DNA from: Campylobacterales bacterium
GTDB taxonomy: Bacteria > Campylobacterota > Campylobacteria > Campylobacterales > Sulfurimonadaceae
Direction: 5' to 3'
Length of the DNA stretch: 64,000 nt
Assembly: GCA_024280035.1 (NCBI GenBank)
Contig: JAJRQV010000014.1
Coordinates: 62,001-126,000 of the forward strand
The notes under the pieces were generated by a model. That model ran no database searches. It worked only from the letters and a program-made list of their open reading frames with translations, and had not been told where the DNA came from. Shown here in pieces: positions 4,883-46,365 of this stretch; within the stretch, counting starts at the first letter, position 1; each line of letters begins with the position of its first letter. Made by a program: the position numbers and the translations under genes.

Positions 4883-6826
4883 ATGAAGAAGTTATTAATA
4901 GTTATTACAGTTTTGTTTGTAGTAGGAGCGGGTTGGATTACGTATTATTATAATTAAGTAAAATATCAGGTTAATACACTAATTGATTATCATCCAACAC
5001 TAACCACACAAATTTTTGATAGAAATGGCGATAAGATTGCTAATATATTTAATAAAGAGCATAGATATTATGTTCATATTGAAGATATTCCCCCTCAAAT
5101 TATTGAAGCACTTATTGCCATTGAAGATACGATGTTCTTTGAACACCCAGGTGTAAATATTGATGCTATTTTTCGTGCTATTATTAAAGATGTTAAAGCA
5201 AGAAAATTAGTAGAAGGGGCATCCACCATTACGCAACAGTTAGTTAAGAATACTTTATTGACACGTGAAAAGAAGTTCTCACGTAAGTTTAAAGAGCTTC
5301 TTTTCTCGCTTAAAATAGAAGCTGAATTAAGTAAAGAAGAGATTTTAGAACGTTACTTAAATCAGATTTATTATGGTCATGGATATTATGGAATTAAAAC
5401 AGCTGCTGATGGCTATTTTCATAAAGATTTAGATGATCTATCTTTAAAAGAGATGGCAATTTTAGTGGGGCTTCCTAAGGCACCTTCTTATTACTCCCCT
5501 ACACGTCATTATGAACAGTCAATGGGTCGGGGAAACCGTGTTGTTTCACGTATGCACCAACTGGGATGGATAGATGACACTACCTATACGACAGCACTTG
5601 CTGAGGAGCCTGAAGTTTTTGATGACACTCTTACAAAAAACAGAGCCCCTTATATCGTAGATGAGGTGCTTCGTCAGCTCAAAGGTGAGTTTAAAAATGT
5701 CAAAGGAGGGGGTTATAAAATTACAACCTCTATTGATATTCGTATGCAAGAAGCAGGTCGACGAGCATTAAAAAAAGGTTATGAGCTAGCCATGGAGCGT
5801 GCTCATGAAGCTGGTGATTTTAATCAGACCTTGATGGATAAACTTAATGGTGCTTTGGTGTCGATTGAACCTAAATCAGGAGATATTTTGGCTCTTGTAG
5901 GTGGAGTTGATTATAAGGTTTCTCAATATAATCGTGCGACCCAAGGTAAACGTCAACCTGGTTCTGCCTTTAAGCCTCTTATTTATCAAGTGGCTGTTGA
6001 TCTGGGGTATTCAGGGGCTTCACAATTAGTTGATATTGCGCGAACCTATGATTATGAAGTTGATGGTGAAGAGAAGAAGTGGAAACCTAAAAATTATGGA
6101 AAAGATTATAAGGGATTTATCTCTTTACGTGAGGCTATTGTACACTCAAGAAACCTTGCTACTATTAATCTTGTAACTGATATTGGTCTGACAACAATGC
6201 GTCGAGCACTTTCACGATTTCATATTAAAAACCTTCCTCCTGACCTCTCTTTAGCATTAGGAAGTATTACCGTTTCTCCTTTAGAGTTTTCACGTTATTA
6301 CACAGTGCTTTCTAATTATGGGACAGAGGTTGAACCGATTTTAATTCGTAGTGTTGAGAATGCCTTTGGTGAAGAGGTGCATTATGATAATATTAAAGAA
6401 GAGATGACCACACCGCAACAAGCCTTTATTATGATTGATGTGATGAAAGATGTTATTAAAAAAGGTTCAGGTCGTAAAGCGCGTGTAGCAGGTATTGAAT
6501 TAGCCGGTAAAACAGGAACAACAAATAAAGGTGTAGATGCATGGTTTTGTGGTTTTTCTCCTGAGATTCAGACTATTATTTGGTATGGAAATGATGACAA
6601 TACACCAATGTTTAAAGGGGAGCAGGGCGGACGTACTGCGGCACCTGCTTTTGCAGAATATTATAAAGAGATTTTGAACACCCATCCTGAAACAAAACGT
6701 AAGTTTGATGAGCCTGAGGGTATGATATCGACTTATGTTGGTAAACAAAAAGAGTATTTTACGGAAATCTCTAAACCGCCAATGATACAAAATATTCAAG
6801 AAGATAATGAAGAATTACTTTTTTAG
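4883..6826 (+). pseudogene. mrcA: Penicillin-binding protein 1A (peptidoglycan glycosyltransferase/transpeptidase), interrupted by an in-frame TAA at 4955-4957
   Basis: A bifunctional class A PBP making peptidoglycan at the outer face of the inner membrane. The frame starts with an ATG at 4883 and a single membrane anchor (MKKLLIVITVLFVVGAGW). It then meets TAA as codon 25 and continues in the same frame to 6826. After the stop come TTQIFDRNG, the glycosyltransferase motif EDTMFFEHPG with catalytic Glu, GASTITQQLVKN, and the transpeptidase motifs PGSAFKP, SRN and KTGTT. All catalytic motifs are intact. The first ATG after the stop (5132) falls inside the glycosyltransferase motif and cannot be a working start. 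A T-to-G change would restore Glu. Such enzymes are usually important for growth, so sequence error, readthrough or a second copy must be considered. Confidence 0.85.
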
Positions 6827-12752: not shown

Positions 12753-13558
12753 ATGCAAACTGTAACCGAATCATTTTTATCTTTAGGAGTAAAAAACCTC
12801 TCTGATATTAGTGATAACCAACTTATTTTACTTGATATAGATTTAGATAAAAAAAACCTCTGGTTTGAATTAGCCTTGGGTAAGAATATTTCTGATGCAA
12901 GGGCAGAACTTTTTATTTTACTTAAGGGCATTAGTGCTAAAACAAATCAAGATAAAATTATTCAAAACTATAAGACCTTACAGAAATTCCGTAAGAGTGA
13001 AAGCCTAAGTGAGAAACAAGAAACACAAGATAAACAAGACCTTAGTGGGGATGTTATTATTTACTGCGATGGGGGTTGTTCTCCTAATCCTGGCGCTTCA
13101 GGTTCAGGAGTCGCGGTTTACCGTAATAATAAGGTAGATGAACTTTGGTATGGGCTATTTGAAGCTAATGGAACCAATAATACAGCTGAACTTAATGCAC
13201 TTTATCATGCCTTGCTTATTGCTGAAAAAGAGTCTGAGTCAGGCAATAAAGTTGAGATTAAATGTGACTCGATGTACTCAATTAACTGTATTAAAACCTG
13301 GGATATAGGATGGGAAAAAATGCTTGGAAGAAAAAAGGTGGAGAGATTAAAAATCTTGAGATAATTCAAAAATCTTATCATCTGTACAATACCATACGTT
13401 CTAAAATCTCACTTTCACATATTAAAGCCCATGCTGGTTTACAGGGGAACGAGTTAGCCGATAGAATGACGCATTATACGAGAAAAACGAAAGAGCCAGA
13501 ATTTAAAAAGTATCCTCACAAAATAGATGTTCAAGAAATATTGAAAATGGGTTCATAA
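12753..13558 (+). pseudogene. Ribonuclease HI-like protein with N-terminal extension, frameshifted near 13312-13320
   Basis: Would cleave the RNA of RNA/DNA hybrids. The first frame (to 13364) has a ~95-residue unrecognised N-terminal region, then the RNase H core: IIYCDGGCSPNPGASGSG with the first catalytic Asp, NNTAELNAL with the catalytic Glu, and KCDSMYSIN with the second Asp. After TWDIGW the frame is lost. The true continuation (NAWKKKGGEIKN, then HIKAHAGLQGNELADRM with the last acidic residue) is in the next frame from about 13314 to 13558. One extra G or A in the run GGGAAAAAA at 13312-13320 would restore a 268-residue protein. The stop overlaps the ycaO start. Confidence 0.8.
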
Positions 13559-19422: not shown

Positions 19423-20318
19423 CTACTCTTGGGCTAAAGCCGTGTAAAAAATGAGGTAATCACTGGTATCATTGTTAATCTCTTTGGTGCTGTTATCTGC
19501 TGGGATAATGGTAACAAAAGGTTTGTTGCTCAAGCGTGCAAAACGAAGAGGGATACCTAAACCTGTCTCAATATGCATAGCTCCTGCAAAAATAATGAGT
19601 TTCTCATTGTCTTGTAAATGTTGAGAAAGTTTAAAACTCTCTTCTGCCATTTTGAATCCCATGCCACTTGAACACGGTACATTCTCTTTTGGCAGGCTTG
19701 TAACGATTCACCCTTTTTTGGTGCATGACAGTGAGATAAAAAAGGCATAATAAGTTCTTTATGCACGCTTATATTGATGTCAAGACCTTGGTTAAACAAG
19801 AACTCTTCAGTACTCATAGCACTTAGATTTTGTTCAGATATTTTTTTTCTAGCAATTTTTGGCATATTAATACCATAGAGTTCGCCCCCTGTTTCGCGGA
19901 TAGCTTCATACATCGGTTTAAAAGAGCTATATTTATTATATTTAAGTCGTTTTTCCCACTCAATCTTTTTTAACAACTCTTTTTCATTCAGTTCTTTATG
20001 GGCAAAGGCAGTTAAGACTTTTTTGTCTTCAGGATAAAACCATTCTGAAGCAAAAAGAACTTTAACCCCAGTGTTTGAGAGCTTCTTAATAAGATTAGCA
20101 ACATGAAGGTGCATATCATCTTCATTATGATGGTCACCAATAAAGATGATTTGGTAAGGTTCTAGTCTCTGTACTAGCTCTTGTTGTGAAAGGCACTGGG
20201 CTGATTTAAGAGAGTAAACTTCGCACTGACTTTTAATAAGGTGTTTGAGGTTTGTCTCTTTGGTAGAACAGGCTGTAAAAAAAAGAAGAAAGAGACAGAA
20301 GCTTATAAATTTAAACAT
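19423..20318 (-). pseudogene. ChaN-like (heme/iron-associated) lipoprotein, frameshifted at 19650-19653
   Basis: A protein of the ChaN/DUF399 family, whose members are outer-membrane lipoproteins able to bind heme (Campylobacter ChaN is the known case). The N-terminus has a lipobox LFFTACS. The core has IIFIGDHHNEDDMHLHVANL, FASEWFYPEDK and LYGINMP, and ends with MYRVQVAWDSKW, where the frame breaks. The remaining ~75 residues (MAEESFKLSQHLQ, LIIFAGAMHIETGLGIPLR) continue in the next frame to 19423. An extra A in the AAAA run (minus strand of 19650-19653) gives the expected AWDSKMAEESF join. Two overlapping fragments therefore represent one gene. Confidence 0.82.
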
Positions 20319-20416
20319 AAAAATCCTATAAATAAAAAAATTGTCTAATTTTAGCGTATAATCTTCATAATTAATTCATAGTATTAAAGTAAAATACTAA
20401 GAACATAAGGATGAGT

Positions 20417-25091: not shown

Positions 25092-25498
25092 TGAGAAAAG
25101 GCGTACTTCTTCTTTTGTTAACGCTCTGTCTTAATGCACAAGAATATGCAGTTGTTTCTAATAAAATCTTAGACGATATGAACCTAATGCAAATTCGTGC
25201 TATTTTTTTAAAGAAGTTAGTCCATGCCAAAGGTTTGCATATTGTGCCTATAAACCTACCATCAAACAGTGTCACGCGAAAGAGTTTTGAAGTTCATGTT
25301 TTAAAAATGCAAACGGCACAACTTAAATCCTACTGGACGAGTCAACACTATTTGGGTAAACGTCCACCTCTTGTTATGAAGAGCCCACAAAGTGCTTTGG
25401 TTTTTGTTAAAAAGGTACAAGGCGCACTCTCTTATGTTAAACTACAAGATATTGATGCATCCGTAAAAGTCTTGTATCGATGGAAAGATAAGGAGTAG
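25091..25498 (+). CDS. Small PstS-like periplasmic binding-domain protein
   Basis: A 135-residue secreted protein (signal RKGVLLLLLTLCLNAQ). The body has AVVSNKILDDMNLMQIRAIF, IVPINLPSNSVTRKSFEVHV and ALVFVKKVQGALSYV. This is the pattern of the short phosphate-ABC-transporter-type substrate-binding domain proteins found beside porins and sensor kinases in many proteobacteria. It is far shorter than true PstS (~320 residues) and has no transporter genes next to it. The gene ends two bases before the kinase gene, so it probably hands a periplasmic signal to that kinase. Confidence 0.75.
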   Translation: MRKGVLLLLLTLCLNAQEYAVVSNKILDDMNLMQIRAIFLKKLVHAKGLHIVPINLPSNSVTRKSFEVHVLKMQTAQLKSYWTSQHYLGKRPPLVMKSPQSALVFVKKVQGALSYVKLQDIDASVKVLYRWKDKE

Positions 25499-25500
25499 AG

Positions 25501-27198
25501 GTGTTTGAGTTTATAAGAAATTCACTTGCTAATCGTCTTTTATTTGCATTTTTAGCCATTGGTGCTCTGTCTTTTGGAATTTTTCTTATTTATACACTGA
25601 TTTTAAGTGAAACAAAAATTGTTAACAAACTTGTTTTAGAACAGCATCACCACATTTAACAGCTTTCAAAAACTATTAATAATCATCTTAATACCTTAAG
25701 TAAAGAGGTCTCTTTCTTGGCACGTTTAGATGTAATGGACGATATTATTAGTGAAGACATTGATAAAAGAATCTCACGTCTTTTAGAACAAAAAGAGAAG
25801 GATTATAATCTTGATTTAGATTTTTTAGTCATTGATGTAAAGGCAGATATTATTGCCTCATCAAATCGGAATAGACGCTTTAAAGGCTCTGCTGAATTTT
25901 ATGATTTTAATGCTTCAAAGGGAAGCTTTTTTTATCAGAATAAATTTTATATTTATGCACAAGTTTTTGCAAGTTTTGATGCGAATAAGAGCTTAGGTTA
26001 TCTTCTTTTAGAATATGATTTAAAAAACTTAGAGCAATTTTTAAATGAGAGTAAAAATGGATTTGCTTATTTGAAAGAGCAGAGTACAGAGAAGATTATT
26101 GGGACAAAACCTGAGATTAAGTTAGGTATTAAAAGTCAAAAAGATAGCATTAGTATAGGTGAATATCTTGTTGTGCACCAGCAGATGTCGGGTGCTTTAC
26201 AGCAGTGGTATATTTTTTATGCGGTAAAAAAAGATATTGCTTTAAGCTTTTTTTATAATTTTATTCGTTTTATGCTCTACCTCTCTCCTTTTATATTACT
26301 TTTAATCGTTTTTATTGCTTATAAATTTTCGTACTATATTGTTAAACCTATTGAGGAATTAACAGAGGTGACAGATGAGATAGTTATCTCTAAAGATTAC
26401 TCAAAATATCTTGATATGGCATCAACAGATGAGATAGGAAAACTGGCTAAATCGTTTAATACCCTCTTAACAACTATGGATAAAACACTTTTTGCTTCGG
26501 ATGCTAAAAGCTCTTTTATCTCAAATATGTCACATGAATTAAAGACCCCTTTAAATGCTATTATTGGTTTTTCACAATATCTTATTACGTATGAAAAACT
26601 AAGCGATGAACAGTTAGATATTGTCTCTAATATAGAGGCTTCTTCCCAATACCTCTTAGAAATGATTCATGGAATCTTAGATATTGCTAAGATTGAATCT
26701 GGAAAAATGGATGTTATTGTGAGCGAGTGTGATTGTTTGACTCTTTTACAAGAGTGCTTTATTATGGTAGAGCCTTTAGCAGAAGATAAGGGATTGAGAT
26801 TTGAGTTTAAAGATGAAAAGTACATAAAAAGTGTATTAAAAACAGATGTGAAAATATTTAAACAGATTGTTTTAAATCTTCTTTCTAATGCGATAAAATA
26901 TACGCAAAAGGGGAGTGTTATTTTAGAAGTTAGCAGTGAAAAAGGTTTGTTAGTTCGCGTAAAAGATACCGGTATTGGTATTGAAGAAAAAGAGATGGGA
27001 AAACTTTTTAAAGAGTTTTCTCGAATTGATAATACTCTAAGTTCTAAACAAAAAGGGACAGGCTTGGGGCTTTCTTTGAGTAAAAAGTTGGCACATCTTA
27101 TTGGGGGGGATATTAAACTCTACAGTGAGGGTACATACAGAGGTGTTTGTGCAGAGTTTAGTATAGGGCAAGTTCCTCTAAGGCAGGAGAAGAGATGA
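25501..27198 (+). pseudogene. Membrane sensor histidine kinase, interrupted by an in-frame TAA at 25657-25659
   Basis: A 566-codon frame from GTG 25501. TM1 is LLFAFLAIGALSFGIFLIY; the TAA is codon 53, just after the membrane segment, in a helix (LEQHHHI-stop-QLSKTINNHL). The periplasmic domain follows, then TM2 (FILLLIVFIAYKF) with a HAMP segment (VKPIEELTEV), the H box SNMSHELKTPLNAII, the N box LLSNAIKYT, and G boxes DTGIGIEEKE and GTGLGLSLSKKL. All kinase motifs are intact. It overlaps the response regulator gene (ATGA). TAA to GAA or CAA would restore it. Translation from later ATGs would lose the first membrane anchor. Confidence 0.82.
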
Positions 27199-28880: not shown

Positions 28881-29411
28881 ATGAAAAAATTACTGTTAGT
28901 TTTACTACTAAGTCTTCCTGTTTTTGCGGGCAATTTAAGCTTAAAAGAGGGATTTGTTGCGGCGCATACGGAGATGATGATGGACTCAACTATTGACCCA
29001 TTAAACAATAATCTTAAAGCAGATATGAGTATGCAAGGGGATGACCTTTTAAGCCTTAAGGGTAAGATGTGGGTTGAAATGGCACTGTGTAGTAGTGATA
29101 ATGCAGACAGAGATGAGCATATGCATGAGGCAAATGAAGCCAAGTCTTTTCCTCTTGCTACGTATCATGTTTCAAGTGTAACTATAGATACAGATGGAAT
29201 CTACACTATACATGGTAATCTCGATTTTCATGGTATTACAAAATCTTTTATGGCAACGGCAGAGATTAAAGATGTTGATGGAGAGATTAGTATTAGTGCC
29301 ACCTCTAAAATCTCAGGAAGTGATTTTGGTATTGAAATGCCGTGTATGGTCTTTATGTGTGTACGTGATCAGATTGATATTTTTGCGAAAGCTGTTTTTA
29401 TTAAGAAGTGA
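28881..29411 (+). CDS. YceI-like periplasmic lipid-binding protein
   Basis: A 176-residue secreted protein (signal KKLLLVLLLSLPVFAG). Its C-terminal two thirds match the YceI lipocalin-like barrel: AKSFPLATYHVSSVTID, YTIHGNLDFHGITKSF with the family's HG-T-K signature, and ISATSKISGSDFGIE. YceI proteins bind isoprenoid chains and are often found with redox membrane proteins. Three Cys residues, two of them close together (CMVFMC), are unusual for the family. AAGGAG precedes the ATG. The next gene starts at a GTG overlapping its stop. Confidence 0.82.
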   Translation: MKKLLLVLLLSLPVFAGNLSLKEGFVAAHTEMMMDSTIDPLNNNLKADMSMQGDDLLSLKGKMWVEMALCSSDNADRDEHMHEANEAKSFPLATYHVSSVTIDTDGIYTIHGNLDFHGITKSFMATAEIKDVDGEISISATSKISGSDFGIEMPCMVFMCVRDQIDIFAKAVFIKK

Positions 29412-30634
29412 GACAAATAATCTTTCTACTCTTTGCGCTTTATTTAAGTGCAAAAGAATCCCTTCCTCCTCTTGAGACAAAACTCTTTAATTTTATAAAA
29501 AATACACAAATCAAAGAGCATGAGCGTCAGCGTTACAGTGGAACCTGGCCAACCTATCCTAAATATTCAGGTGTACGAAAAGAGATTCCTGAGTCTAACT
29601 CTTTTATGACCTTGCAGACTATTATTCTTTTAGAAGAAGTCAATAAGGAGTATAAACTTTAAGGTATTGATGAGGTTCTATCTTTAGCAGATGAGCAGAT
29701 TCAAAAATATGTTTTAGATGCAGATAAAACGGATGAGGTTAAAGGAACAATCTCTTTTTGGCCTCTGATTCAAACAGATGAGGGAGAATGGATACGTTCT
29801 TTTGATACACAATGGTACAACACTTCTATGCGAATTTTAAATGTTGGAAATGATTTTGACAGCTCTTCACAGGCCTTTTCTTGGTTTTTTATGCAAAAAG
29901 AAAACAGAGAATTTATGGACTCTTTTGTTCGTAGTGTTGGAGATTATGTAGACAGTAATCGAAGTGTAGAACATCCTCTTAATGAAACATGGAAGCAGAA
30001 AAATACAGGTGCTTTTTTAACCTGGGCAGAGACAGAAGCCCCCGAACAACCCATAAATAGAATTATGGACTTAGTGAATGATGTGGATTGTGTGGTTAAT
30101 CTAAATATTTTAAGTGCCTTATCGTATTATGAAAACAGTCTTGATAGCTTACCTCTTAAAACAGCTAAGGCAAGGGATGCTTCATGTCAATTAATACACC
30201 AAGTGATTGTAAATAATGAAGAAGAAAAGTGTGCAACATGGTACACACGAAAATCGCATTTTTATTTAGCCTTTACCAAAGCCTATAAGGCAGATACCTT
30301 CTGCATAGAAGCAGATAAAAACTTAGTATATGAGAGGGCTAAAAACAGAGCAAAATATCTGCTGGCACACCCTAAGATGCAGGCTTATACTGAAATAGCT
30401 GAACATATCATTATATTAAAAAGTCTTCGAAAAAGTAGAACCTACTTTTTTAATAACTTTATTAATAACTTAGAAACTGAATTAAAAAAAGGCATTATTG
30501 AGAAAAAGAGTTATGCCTACCTTCCCTCAAAACACTCTCTTTTTGGAGGTCAAGCCTTTGGTCTGTTTCATTTTGACTGGTACGGACGTGCAAATGCCAC
30601 AGCTCTTGCTTTAAGAGCCTTAAGCATGAGATGA
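29408..30634 (+). pseudogene. Uncharacterised secreted protein (408 codons), interrupted by an in-frame TAA at 29660-29662
   Basis: From GTG 29408: a signal peptide (RQIIFLLFALYLSAKE), then PPLETKLFNFIKNT, TWPTYPKYSG and TMTLQTIILLEEV-like helices. TAA follows NKEYKL, and the frame continues with GIDEVLSLADEQIQKYVLDA through WYNTSMRILNVGNDFDSSS to ALALRALSMR. Several helical repeats with NRIMDLVNDVDCVVNLNILS and a run of Trp/Tyr recall alpha/alpha-toroid enzymes or TPR-less repeats, but no family is recognised. Reading continues for 324 residues beyond the stop without another. TAA to GAA gives YKLEGIDEVL. It overlaps the YceI-like gene, so the two may act together. Confidence 0.7.
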
Positions 30635-39824: not shown

Positions 39825-40238
39825 ATGATGGATACAGGTTGGATTACCATTCAAGAATATTCTGAACTCACAGGTTTAAGCCCTGATGCAATTGATGACT
39901 TAATGGAACGGGGTAAGTTGGAGTGTAAAACTGAATTGGGAAAGGTTTATATTGATCCTTCTCGTGGTATGCAAGCTATAGTCCCTTCTGAAATAGGTGA
40001 GCTTACTGAATCGGGGGGCTCAAGCATTAATGTAGGCCCTCAGTTTATTGAAAAAACCATTGGTACTATTATTAATCTTCATGAAAAAGTATTGGTGGCT
40101 AAAGATGAAACAATTGAGTCGGTAAAAAATGAGAATTTGTTTTTAAAAGAGGCACTTTCATCTTTACAAGACCTGTATGAAGAAGATAGAAACACAATTG
40201 ACACCCTAACAAAACAGCTGAATCTTTCTCAAGATTAG
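39825..40238 (+). CDS. DUF3972 protein
   Basis: A 137-residue protein. The first ~45 residues (WITIQEYSELTGLSPDAIDDLMERGKLECK) form an excisionase/MerR-like winged helix-turn-helix; the second half is a coiled coil (ETIESVKNENLFLKEALSSL). This is the DUF3972 arrangement, a family almost confined to Campylobacterota. Its role is not established; a DNA-binding or scaffold role is suggested by the fold. ATG 39828 has a better spaced AAGG than ATG 39825. Confidence 0.75.
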   Translation: MMDTGWITIQEYSELTGLSPDAIDDLMERGKLECKTELGKVYIDPSRGMQAIVPSEIGELTESGGSSINVGPQFIEKTIGTIINLHEKVLVAKDETIESVKNENLFLKEALSSLQDLYEEDRNTIDTLTKQLNLSQD

Positions 40239-41192: not shown

Positions 41193-42037
41193 AGTTTTGT
41201 GAACCTTAGTGCTCTGCTTAAATCATCTGCTTTAATCTCTTCTCTTCCTTCACCAAAATAAGGCTTGGTTTTAATTTTTCCAAAATAAGAAGTATTTCCT
41301 CCTAATTTTACACCAAGAACTAATGCCATTGCTGTAATTGGGTGACCTGCATTTGGACTTTCATGTTCTTTTCCTTGTGGATAAAAGGCAAAAATATCGC
41401 GTTGTGAACCTAAGATCATGATGAGTATAGCCGTTATTCTTGAGGGAATATAGTTTACAATATCATCTAAAATAGCGGCTACCTTACCATAGTTTTCATA
41501 TTTCTCATTTCTATAACCTACCATAGAATCCATGGTGTTGATAGCCTTATAGATGATAATTCCAGGAAGATTAAAAAGAAGAAGATAAAAAATAGGTGCC
41601 ACCACCCCATCGGAAAGGTTTTCTGCGTAGGTTTCTATTGCTGCCTTATAGATATCTGTGTCATTCATGTCTTGAACGTCTCTACTGACTAACATTGAAA
41701 TTGCATGTTTTTTATCTTCACTGGTTAAGATCTCTTTAACCGTATGATAAAGCATATTATGAGCAATAAACATAGACGTAAAAATAGAAGAAAAAATTAT
41801 CATCCAAATATAGGGTAAAAGGTGAAGTAGGTAAACAAGAGCAATAGATAAAATAAATACAGTACTTAGTATAAATACAACGAGGTAAGCCCCTCGTTTA
41901 ACACTGTCTTCATAAAACTTCTTTTCAAACAGGCTGATAAGTTCACCTATAATAATAATGGGGTGTTTTATATAAGGAAATTCACCAAAAAACTTGTCAA
42001 TGAAGTAGGCAAAAAATGAGATTAAAAGATTACTCAT
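41189..42037 (-). CDS. cbiB: Adenosylcobinamide-phosphate synthase
   Basis: A 282-residue membrane protein joining aminopropanol phosphate to adenosylcobyric acid. It has AYFIDKFFGEFPYIKHPIII with the family's D-x-x-x-G-D/E-P...HP pattern. Four or five membrane segments follow, then SRDVQDMNDTDIYKAAIETY AEN-type loop and DGVVAPIFYLLLFNLPGI, and NAGHPITAMALVLGVKLGGN. It overlaps the end of cbiP by 8 bases and is the last gene of the minus-strand run kinase-cobD-cbiP-cbiB. Confidence 0.92.
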   Translation of the reverse strand: MSNLLISFFAYFIDKFFGEFPYIKHPIIIIGELISLFEKKFYEDSVKRGAYLVVFILSTVFILSIALVYLLHLLPYIWMIIFSSIFTSMFIAHNMLYHTVKEILTSEDKKHAISMLVSRDVQDMNDTDIYKAAIETYAENLSDGVVAPIFYLLLFNLPGIIIYKAINTMDSMVGYRNEKYENYGKVAAILDDIVNYIPSRITAILIMILGSQRDIFAFYPQGKEHESPNAGHPITAMALVLGVKLGGNTSYFGKIKTKPYFGEGREEIKADDLSRALRFTKL

Positions 42038-43415
42038 TTAAAGCATTTTGAATATAATTGATATCAACATATTTATCTATATGCATAGCAAAATCGTTAA
42101 TTGCAGTTGATTTAAATGTTTTAAACTCATATCCCTTATACTCCTCATTTATAGCTGAAAATATTTTATAGCGTAAGTCATCATTGTCAAAAAGCCCATG
42201 CACAAAGGTGCCAAAAAGATTTTTTTTCTGTTTCGCTCGTTTTTTGCTTATGCCGTTATGAATTTCATACCCATTGACCATGATGCCAAAAAGATTGTAG
42301 CAGTCTTTGGTAACAATTTTTTCCTCTTGAAAAATGACCTCTCCTTTGAACCGTGCAAAGGCTTTAACTTCTTTAACATCAGACTCTATGGCTAAGGGGT
42401 CAAGAATTTTTTAAAACATCATCTCATAACCACCACAAATGGCAATAATTACTTTCTTTTTAGACTTAAGTGCTTTTTCAAAGCCTCTTTGTCTTAACCA
42501 GTTTAAATCATCAATGACTCTTTTTGTTCCAGGAAGGATGATAGCGTGACAGTTTATAAGTTCACTAGGGTTTGAGATAAAGACAAGTTCAATTTCAGGA
42601 TCTGTAATAAGAGGCTCAAAGTCGGTGAAATTACTAATATGAGGGAGCCGTATGACGCCTACCCTTATAATAGCCTTTTGTGTATCTTGAATGTAATTCA
42701 TAATAGAGGCACTGTCCTCAAATCCAAGGTTAAATGGCTTAAAGGGTACGACACCAAGAACTTTAATACCAAAACGCTCTTGTATAATCTCTACTCCCTC
42801 ATCAAAAAGAGTCATATCTCCTTGAAACTTATTGACAATAACCCCAATAACATTTTGTCTTAGTTTTTCAGGAAGAAGTTGATAAACCCCATAAATTGAA
42901 GCAAATACCCCGCCTCTTTGAATGTCTGCAACAAAGACAATTTTAGTGTTGAATTCATCAGCGATATATATATTAGAGAGGTCTCTGTCCATAAGGTTTA
43001 GCTCAACAGGACTTCCTGCTCCCTCAGCTACAATACACTCATAGGTCTCTTGAAGTTTTTTAAAGGCGAGTGAAGCAAAAGGTTTTAGAGTATTGATATC
43101 TCTGTAGTATGACCATACGTCTTTATTACCGATACTTTTGCCATTGACAATAATATGTGCCTTTGACTTTCCTCCAGACTTAAGCAGAACAGGATTCATA
43201 TAAGGGGATGTTTTTAGTCCTATTGCCTCTGCAGCAAAGTACTGAGGAATTGCAATTTCACCTCCCTCATCCGTAACTTGAGAATTATTAGAAACATTTT
43301 GAGCCTTGTAAGGAGCTACTTTGATACCCCGGTGATGTAACAGATAGGTAATAGCAAAAGCAAGGGTTTATTTTCCTGCATCAGAACTGGTACCAAAGAT
43401 ACTAAGTGATCGCAT
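42030..43415 (-). pseudogene. cbiP: Adenosylcobyric acid synthase (glutamine-hydrolysing), interrupted by two in-frame TAA codons
   Basis: Amidates the corrin side chains b, d, e and g. The 461-codon frame from ATG 43415 begins RSLSIFGTSSDAGK, then TAA at 43370-43368 exactly where the P-loop needs Ser/Thr, and continues TLAFAITYLLHHRGIKVAPY, KAQNVSNNS, DEGGEIAIPQYFAAEA, MNPVLLKSGGKSKAHI. The GATase domain with the Cys nucleophile (IIAICGGYEMMF) is followed by a second TAA (42413-42411), then KILDPLAIESDV and GYEIHNG to the end, with the His of GTFVHGLFDND. No other frame change is needed. Both stops must be bypassed to make an active enzyme. Confidence 0.9.
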
Positions 43416-44394
43416 TTAAAACCTCTTTTAGTAAGCTGTGTGCTTTTTTATCTTTAACCGCAAAACGAAGATAATCATTACTCAAGTAATCAAAACTTCC
43501 ACAGGTTCGTGTGAGTATCTTTTTACGCAAAAGCATAGCAAAAATTTTATCTGCTTTGCTAGATTTACATAAATAAAAGTTTGAATCACTGGGATAAATT
43601 TTTTCAAATAAGTTCGATTTTTTTAGAATTTTTAGTAAATTTTCTTTGTTTTTATAATGTAGTTTTTTACTTTTTTTAGTAAAACTTTTATCTTGTAATC
43701 TCTGTTTTAAAAACTCAACATCATAAGAAGAGAGGTTCCATAAAGGAGTTTTTAGTTGTTGTATATTTATCTTATGTGAAAAAATAGCACCGATACGGAT
43801 ACCCGCACAGCTGTAAAACTTTGAGAATGACTGTATGATATAAAGATTTTTATTGTGGTTGATTTTATCTCTATACGAGGGGAGGTCTTCAAATTCTAAA
43901 AAAGATTCATCCAAGATTATTGTGCAGTTTTGTTCTTTCCATAAAATAAAAAGTTTTTTTAAGTCATAATATTTGGCTTCAGGGGTAGAAGGATTAACAA
44001 ATACAATAATCGAATTTTTTTCAGGTTTTTCATAAAGATTTGAAAAGCGATTGATTTTAATAATGTCTTTGCCACTACAGGCCTTTTCATATTCGCCATA
44101 AAGTGGGGCATAAAGGTAAACGCTTCTCTCTTTTAAAAAAGAAAGGAGAAAAAAAATAGCAGAACTTGCACCATTATGAAGAGAAATTTGTGATTTTTTG
44201 ATGTGGTACTTTTTAGAAATCTCTTTTTTTAAGGCCTTGTAGCTTGGTTCTGCATAACGTACAAGCATCTCGTTTTTTATGTTTAAAGTAGACTTTGGAT
44301 GATAAGCATTTATATTTGAAGAGAAATCTATAATTTTTTCTTCTTTGCATTGAAACAAAGAGGCATATCTATAAATATCGGCACCATGTTTCAT
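43402..44394 (-). CDS. cobD: Threonine-phosphate decarboxylase-like PLP enzyme
   Basis: A 330-residue fold-type I aminotransferase related to CobD/CobC and HisC. HGADIYRYASLFQCKEEKII, then IDFSSNINAYHP (substrate-end motif of CobD), SLHNGASSAIFFLLSFL, a PLP-binding DESFLEFEDLPS, and the lysine block IIQSFSKFYSCAGIRIG. It would make aminopropanol phosphate for the cobalamin loop. It overlaps cbiP by 14 bases and the kinase gene by 4, so co-translation is likely. HisC function is disfavoured by the cobalamin context and the IDFSSNIN start. Confidence 0.87.
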   Translation of the reverse strand: MKHGADIYRYASLFQCKEEKIIDFSSNINAYHPKSTLNIKNEMLVRYAEPSYKALKKEISKKYHIKKSQISLHNGASSAIFFLLSFLKERSVYLYAPLYGEYEKACSGKDIIKINRFSNLYEKPEKNSIIVFVNPSTPEAKYYDLKKLFILWKEQNCTIILDESFLEFEDLPSYRDKINHNKNLYIIQSFSKFYSCAGIRIGAIFSHKINIQQLKTPLWNLSSYDVEFLKQRLQDKSFTKKSKKLHYKNKENLLKILKKSNLFEKIYPSDSNFYLCKSSKADKIFAMLLRKKILTRTCGSFDYLSNDYLRFAVKDKKAHSLLKEVLNAIT

Positions 44395-45185
44395 AATAAC
44401 TCTTTTGCTTTGAGGGTGTTTTTATACTTATATACTCTTTTAAGTGCATAATAATGTGAGGCAATGTACATTTTGTCTAAAACCTCTTTTTTAGTTAGTT
44501 TTTTACGTGTTCTTTGGTTGTATGTTTTTAAAAACAGGTCAATGTAATGATGATTATGTATTTGCGTGTCAAATCCTATAAGTGCTACGGCAACATCAAA
44601 ACTAAGACTTCCACAAGAGCTGTCTATAAAGTCTATTACTCCAATTTTATGACCTTGAAAAATAGTATTGTCCTTAAAAATATCGCCATGGATAAGATGA
44701 TTGTGGGTATTGGTGAAATCTTTTAAAAACTCAAATTTTTTATAATAAGCGAAAAACTGTGTTTTAGTATATCGTAGTGCTTCTAACACTTCATCTTCTA
44801 CTGCCTTATTTGAAAGGCAAGGAATTTGGGCCGTTTGTTTATGTAGTTGACTAATAAATCTTGCTAAGGCCTGTATATGATAAGCTTGAATGGTAGAAGG
44901 TTGTTTACCTTTCAAACGTTTATAGATATACCATTCATCTTTATTATCAAGACATATGGGAACATTTAAACCAGCTGATTTTAGGTAGTTTAAGAGTTTG
45001 ATATCTTCTTGAATTTTTTGAGTAATATCTCTTTCGTATTTTTTTAAAATATAACTTTTGTCTTGTGTGAAAACGATATAGGTAGTATCCATAATTCCAG
45101 AAGTAGTCGGCAAAATCTTTAAAAATTTGTAAGAGGGAAAGAGCTGATTTAACTCATTTAAAGAGATTGATGTTAAAACGCCCAC
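44391..45185 (-). CDS. APH-fold small-molecule kinase in the cobalamin operon
   Basis: A 264-residue aminoglycoside-phosphotransferase-like kinase. TTYIVFTQDKSYILKKYERD has the ATP-anchoring Lys, IHGDIFKDNTIF the catalytic HGD...N, and KIGVIDFIDSSCGSLSFDVA the metal-binding Asp. It resembles the ThrB2-type homoserine kinases of the APH superfamily. Here it sits between the Cys-rich gene and the threonine-phosphate decarboxylase, 4 bases overlapping the latter. A role as L-threonine kinase supplying that enzyme is likely, replacing PduX, which belongs to the unrelated GHMP family. That role is inferred from position. Confidence 0.75.
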   Translation of the reverse strand: MGVLTSISLNELNQLFPSYKFLKILPTTSGIMDTTYIVFTQDKSYILKKYERDITQKIQEDIKLLNYLKSAGLNVPICLDNKDEWYIYKRLKGKQPSTIQAYHIQALARFISQLHKQTAQIPCLSNKAVEDEVLEALRYTKTQFFAYYKKFEFLKDFTNTHNHLIHGDIFKDNTIFQGHKIGVIDFIDSSCGSLSFDVAVALIGFDTQIHNHHYIDLFLKTYNQRTRKKLTKKEVLDKMYIASHYYALKRVYKYKNTLKAKELL

Positions 45186-45611
45186 TTATAAAAGGCACTT
45201 TTGCATAATTTTTTTCCAGTCAAGGTCAAAGTGTTTTTTTACATAATCTTGATGATGAGGAACACCACATTTAGAGCAGTCTTGATGTATTTTTTCGCCA
45301 TACACACCCTGTCTTCCATCTTTTGACTTGATATCACAAAGGCTGTACTGGGTTTTAGTGTTTATCTTTTGAATGCCCTCGTCATCAAAGCGAAAATTAG
45401 GACAGGCGCAAAGATAACAGTTGAGTTTTTCCATATCATGACATTTTTTATTTTTGGCATACAGGGGGCAAAAATCATATTCCTCTTTTTTCATATTTTC
45501 AAAATCAAAATATTATATTATCTGCTCATGGCTGTAATTCTTGCTTAATAATTTAGTAACAATAACTTTATGCTTAAGAGCATGTTCTTCAAACCAACGC
45601 TTATATCCCAT
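45186..45611 (-). pseudogene. Cysteine-rich small-domain protein of cobalamin clusters, interrupted by an in-frame TAA at 45515-45513
   Basis: From ATG 45611 the frame reads MGYKRWFEEHALKHKVIVTK, LLSKNYSHEQII, then TAA, then YFDFENMKKEEYDFCP and an array of about ten Cys including CHDMEKLNCYLCACPNF and DCSKCGVPHH. This is the Cys-rich small domain (metal-binding-like) often found in archaeal and epsilonproteobacterial cobalamin loci; the activity is unknown. The ATG after the stop (45494) would still give the Cys-rich part, 102 residues. TAA to GAA gives IIEYFDFENM, as commonly seen in family members, and a 141-residue protein. Confidence 0.75.
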
Positions 45612-45685: not shown

Positions 45686-46365
45686 ATGCATATAGAACCC
45701 GGAATGGTAGATGCTGCGAAAATAGGTCTTTCGTATGCTACTGCAACAGCGGCTCTACTAGGGGTTGCAAAACTTTCATACGACAATATTAGAGATAACA
45801 ATATTGTCTCTTTTTTTATGAAGGCAATGGTTTCAACACTTTTAGTATTTACATTTTTTGAGGTTTTTCCTCATTATTCTGTTGGTGTTTCTGAAGTACA
45901 TTTAATTATGGGCTCAACACTTTTTTTACTGTTCGGAGTTGCTCCAGCCAGTATTGGTCTAGCAGTAGGGCTTTTCATTCAAGGGCTTTTCTTTGCACCT
46001 TTGATCTTCCTCAATTAGGAATGAATTTAACGTCTTTACTTGTGCCTCTTATGGGTATCGCTTATATGGCAAAGAAAATTATTCCTTCACAGACTGTATA
46101 TACGGATTTACAATACTCTCAAGTGCTAAAACTATCTTTAGCGTATCAAGGTGGAATTGTTAGTTGGGTAGCTTTTTGGGCAATTTACGGGCAAGGGTTT
46201 GGTGCTGAAAACATGGCTTCAATTCTTAGTTTTGGGTCGGCTTACATGTTAGTTGTTATTATTGAACCTTTTGCAGACTTGGCAGTTTTAGCCTTTGCTA
46301 AAGTATTAAAAGATACATTTTCGAAAACAAATCTTTTTGAAAAAAGACTTTACCAAAAAGTATAA
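45686..46365 (+). pseudogene. cbiM: Cobalt ECF-transporter substrate-specific component CbiM, frameshifted at 46000-46002
   Basis: The membrane component that captures cobalt for ECF uptake. The first frame starts MHIEPGMVDAAK with the His-2 metal ligand and runs through VGVSEVHLIMGSTLFLLFG and GLAVGLFIQGLFFAP. It is then lost at TTT (46000-46002). The second frame (to 46365) continues MNLTSLLVPLMG, VSWVAFWAIYGQGFGAENMA and VVIIEPFADLAVLAFAK. One extra T gives FAPFDLPQLGMNLT, the expected continuation of the family, and 226 residues. Neither half could function alone. No cbiN, cbiQ or cbiO is adjacent. Confidence 0.88.

Follow-up and report, generated by a model that had tools for sequence, protein, structure and literature searches.

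Two in-frame stop codons in cbiP of a Sulfurimonas-like draft genome probably reflect a genome-wide consensus artefact

Introduction

Cobyric acid synthases of the CbiP/CobQ family possess a P-loop and a GATase domain and are described by the protein family profiles NF001989 and TIGR00313. The cbiP gene of a Sulfurimonas-like draft genome likewise has both domains in place and, when read through, encodes a protein matching both profiles at full length and above cutoff; as deposited, however, it differs from the family by two TAA codons within its frame. Conserved in-frame stops in bacteria were proposed to be leaky and to lower expression (PMC7918605), and G>T artefacts are known to arise from DNA that becomes oxidised outside the cell (PMC12390751). 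A further system for comparison is provided by mutY mutator lineages, with which this genome shares the base-change bias, a broken mutY frame, and the lack of a detected MutM. Here, we compare the cbiP locus and its genome with these systems and conclude that the two TAA codons probably belong to a base-level consensus artefact affecting the whole assembly.

Results

The window, i.e., the complete stretch of 64,000 nucleotides under study, contains cbiP at 42030..43415 on the minus strand, with a read-through frame of 461 codons that holds exactly two internal TAA codons, as stated in the initial annotation. The first one, codon 16 (43370-43368, minus strand), lies in the sequence DAGK*TL and, in agreement with that annotation, occupies the Ser/Thr position of the P-loop, which is Ser in all relatives aligned at this site and is encoded by TCN in almost all of them. 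The second one, codon 335 (42413-42411, minus strand), lies in the sequence CGGYEMMF*KILDP, eight residues past the GATase Cys and thus just behind it as had been claimed, at a Glu position encoded by GAA or GAG in most relatives. A family-like frame on both sides of the two stops had also been proposed, and the read-through protein, with X in place of each stop, indeed matched NF001989 from residue 3 to 458 with 453.8 bits (cutoff 273). The GATase Cys is present (ICGGYEMM) and the P-loop GK(S/T) reads GK*, so that both are not contained within one open frame. Among the invariant columns of CbiP, the stop at codon 16 was the sole oddity, and relaxed constraint of the kind seen in pseudogenes was not observed. 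Each stop is a single G:C-to-T:A change away from a codon common in relatives, TCA in the case of codon 16 and GAA in the case of codon 335.

No stop was detected in any relative with a full-length cbiP match in the searched genus and family. A search of the genome for a second cobQ/cbiP, suggested in the initial annotation, did not reveal another CbiP; the remaining GATase_3 matches corresponded to cbiA and to a short hit at another site. In the relative L072 (Sulfurimonas sp. UBA2011), a single stop was found inside the cbiP alignment.

The cobalamin region contains four lesions within 3.6 kb. Apart from the two cbiP stops, these are an in-frame TAA (45515-45513) in the first gene of the cbi operon, a Cys-rich gene of 141 codons (45186..45611, minus strand), at a position occupied by Asp or Glu in most relatives, and a 1-base deletion near 46000 that splits the frame of a CbiM-like 226-aa gene (45686..46365, plus strand), which is one open frame in relatives L061 and L066. 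The earlier count of six intact genes among eight other cobalamin genes requires revision: cbiB, cobD, a kinase gene, cbiK, cbiA, cbiC, cbiD, and cbiE/T are open, but the Cys-rich gene and the CbiM-like gene are not. The accumulation of lesions in this region would be in line with a real and recent loss, in which cbiP, the Cys-rich gene, and cbiM are decaying since cobalamin synthesis is no longer needed, possibly accelerated by a mutY-defective mutator background. We regard such a loss as unlikely, considering the open frames of the other cobalamin genes and the absence of missense build-up at invariant columns of CbiP, PBP1A, and SecY.

Moreover, decay confined to cobalamin genes was rejected, because the same lesions were found in the PBP1A and DUF3972 genes and then in essential genes. 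In the window, the PBP1A gene (4883..6826, plus strand) has TAA at codon 25 (4955-4957), which is Gln in sister species, and the orthologues found in relatives are open. The DUF3972 gene (39825..40238, plus strand) carries TAG near codon 138 (40236-40238), a position that is GAG in two sister species. A further gene (29405..30634, plus strand) has TAA at 29660-29662, through which a relative at 62% identity reads, and a gene for a likely Cache-domain sensor (25492..27198, plus strand) has TAA at 25657-25659, a reference-free call only. Probable 1-base frameshifts were noticed in 13310-13558 (near 13358) and 19423-20375 (near 19650), each in comparison to one relative.

The genome is a 2.51 Mb draft of 107 contigs, of which about 0.44 Mb was sampled, together with stretches of six relatives. 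At least 11 convincing in-frame stops were found in the 151 kb aligned to relatives' proteins, and premature stops occur about once in every 10-15 kb of coding sequence. In contrast, none was judged genuine in 389 kb of the sister genomes G001 (142 kb) and G004 (247 kb), in which visual inspection assigned the flagged stops to antisense shadows or to sequence 5' of starts. The excess over the two sister genomes is significant (P of about 8e-7).

Several stops of the sampled genome lie in essential genes. In EF-Tu (L301:1495-2691 and L004:513, minus strand; contig C65), found as a single copy in a search for its third domain, TAA replaces a Glu codon, with the remainder of the protein being normal. 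SecY (L199:598, minus strand; contig C12) has TAA where 27/27 relatives have Glu, and the gene of ribosomal protein L16 (rplP; L199:5243, minus strand; contig C12) has a TAA stop at codon 116 of 141. In RnpA, a premature stop is located at a Ser position. In NuoB (L190:14774, minus strand), TAA is codon 80 of the read-through frame; at the L16 and NuoB sites, Glu is presumably the expected residue. In-frame TAA codons were also found in Tex (L193:880, minus strand) and an NFACT-domain protein (L196:15988, minus strand); these two and the NuoB stop were recovered in a reference-free scan and are each spanned by a profile match. Further stops were present in genes for a TonB receptor, a carbonic anhydrase, and a CvfB-like protein. 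The lesions hit essential and dispensable genes alike, with the TonB receptor, the CvfB-like protein, and the carbonic anhydrase being affected in addition to EF-Tu, SecY, L16, RnpA, NuoB, and PBP1A, and no sequence motif common to their surroundings was seen by eye. One candidate, L202:8170, was dropped, being the regular terminator of a fumarate reductase flavoprotein gene that precedes the gene of the iron-sulphur subunit. Stops in single-copy EF-Tu, SecY, L16, and RnpA would be lethal without suppression, and this is our main argument against a real loss of cbiP; recent loss of cbiP alone is insufficient to explain stops in essential genes throughout the genome.

The base changes follow a pattern. 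About 11 of some 14 stops with a clear residue in relatives fit G:C-to-T:A changes in Glu and Ser codons, a bias with P = 7e-5 under equal rates and P = 3e-4 under a typical AT-biased spectrum. Random G:C-to-T:A errors are expected to produce about seven missense changes per nonsense change; however, an excess of G:C-to-T:A missense changes was not found in three comparisons, which were of limited power and one of which used genes partly chosen for stops. TAA accounts for about 17 of 20 stops versus 59% expected (P of about 0.01).

This spectrum matches loss of MutY, and a living mutator at first looked attractive. The sole gene with a match to the MutY family along most of its length (L293:1278-2214, minus strand; contig C77) is disrupted by a 1-base frameshift close to a run of A at around 1580, and it is open in five relatives of the same genus and in several others. 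MutM/Fpg was found neither in this genome nor in the 12 relatives searched. Altogether, the frameshifted mutY and the nonsense bias predicted for such a mutator were seen, but the missense excess was not, in comparisons of limited power. We disfavour this explanation because a living mutator would not tolerate stops in essential single-copy genes of the kind present here.

Assembly features were informative as well. Contigs C2 and C12 share an exact overlap of 141 bases with zero mismatches, which marks a de Bruijn assembly of short reads with k=141. The sample of this genome contained five single-base frameshifts, compared to three for G001 and one for G004. Indel errors of long reads are disfavoured by the 141-base overlap and by substitutions outnumbering indels.

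Discussion

Stops in essential genes without a detectable extra load of missense changes, their skew toward TAA, and the prevalence of Glu positions among stop sites would be in line with a translation of UAA, and perhaps UAG, into an amino acid, mainly Glu, at some sites, leaving the genes functional as deposited. Yet, we consider such recoding very improbable. Suppression by a mutant tRNA had been suggested in the initial annotation together with a search for an UUA anticodon. None was found among 33 tRNA genes, drawn from an incomplete tRNA set: the draft is rated 100% complete, yet tRNA-Asp and tRNAs for several other anticodons were not found. Sequences matching a pattern for class I tRNAs that carry this anticodon were known tRNAs or non-tRNAs, and a class II pattern gave further candidate matches. 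TAA is not avoided as a terminator, as might be the case under an altered genetic code, but terminates 62.8% of long open reading frames, the same share as in the sister genome G001, and second stops following TAA are not enriched. Recoding would also leave the frameshifts unexplained. Furthermore, the one inserted residue would have to work at the P-loop Ser as well as at many Glu positions, and Glu in place of this Ser is expected to disable CbiP. Nevertheless, the lack of a missense excess and the TAA skew lead us to keep a small probability on a real dual use of UAA. That a relative of Sulfurimonas tolerates UAA in essential genes, decoding it mainly as Glu at some sites while still terminating most genes with it, likewise appears very improbable. 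If the stops are real, they would represent a dual-use UAA in a free-living bacterium.

Alternatively, the stops might be real but leaky and lower expression. As in the bacterial in-frame stops discussed as leaky (PMC7918605), the frame is conserved on both sides and remains so 3' of the stops. In this case, however, the stops are private to one assembly, none being common to any relative in the genome searches, and they lie in genes intolerant of underexpression; a cell could not be sustained by readthrough levels of EF-Tu and L16. We therefore rate leakiness as the least probable explanation.

In our opinion, the two TAA codons of cbiP are probably part of a genome-wide base-level consensus artefact of the assembly. 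Among the initially proposed causes, error is thus favoured, as essential genes are affected and sister genomes are not, whereas loss of cbiP alone and suppression are disfavoured. This assignment builds on the lesions, their spread over the genome, their presence in essential genes, the bias in base changes, and the contig overlap that marks a short-read assembly, and DNA damage may be the source of the stops. It is conceivable that guanine was oxidised, and some cytosine deaminated, in the DNA that served as template for a short-read metagenome, and that the number of independent molecules behind each base was too small to keep the damage from being fixed in the consensus. G:C-to-T:A damage at Glu and Ser codons might then give rise to most of the premature stops in genes of every kind. 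The stops resemble 8-oxoG artefacts (G>T / C>A) in their main change; on the coding strand, G>T and C>A occur in roughly the ratio that codon usage would predict. In contrast, 8-oxoG artefacts are normally rare variants in deep data, while those proposed here are fixed in the consensus, and their expected missense companions were not detected in this genome. The absence of the approximately seven missense changes expected per nonsense change speaks against an artefact, as does the overrepresentation of TAA (P of about 0.01). In addition, the survival of errors in a 160-kb short-read contig would require low depth or few founding molecules.

With the same type of lesion in single-copy essential genes, cbiP cannot be called dead. 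We infer that it is an ordinary gene, intact in the living organism. More generally, calls of pathway loss from this genome are unsafe, given that EF-Tu, SecY, and L16 are each interrupted by a premature stop in a draft rated as fully complete. The cobalamin region also includes a gene for a homoserine-kinase-like APH family kinase (44391-45185, minus strand), situated between cobD and the Cys-rich gene, whose product is possibly a threonine kinase feeding CobD.
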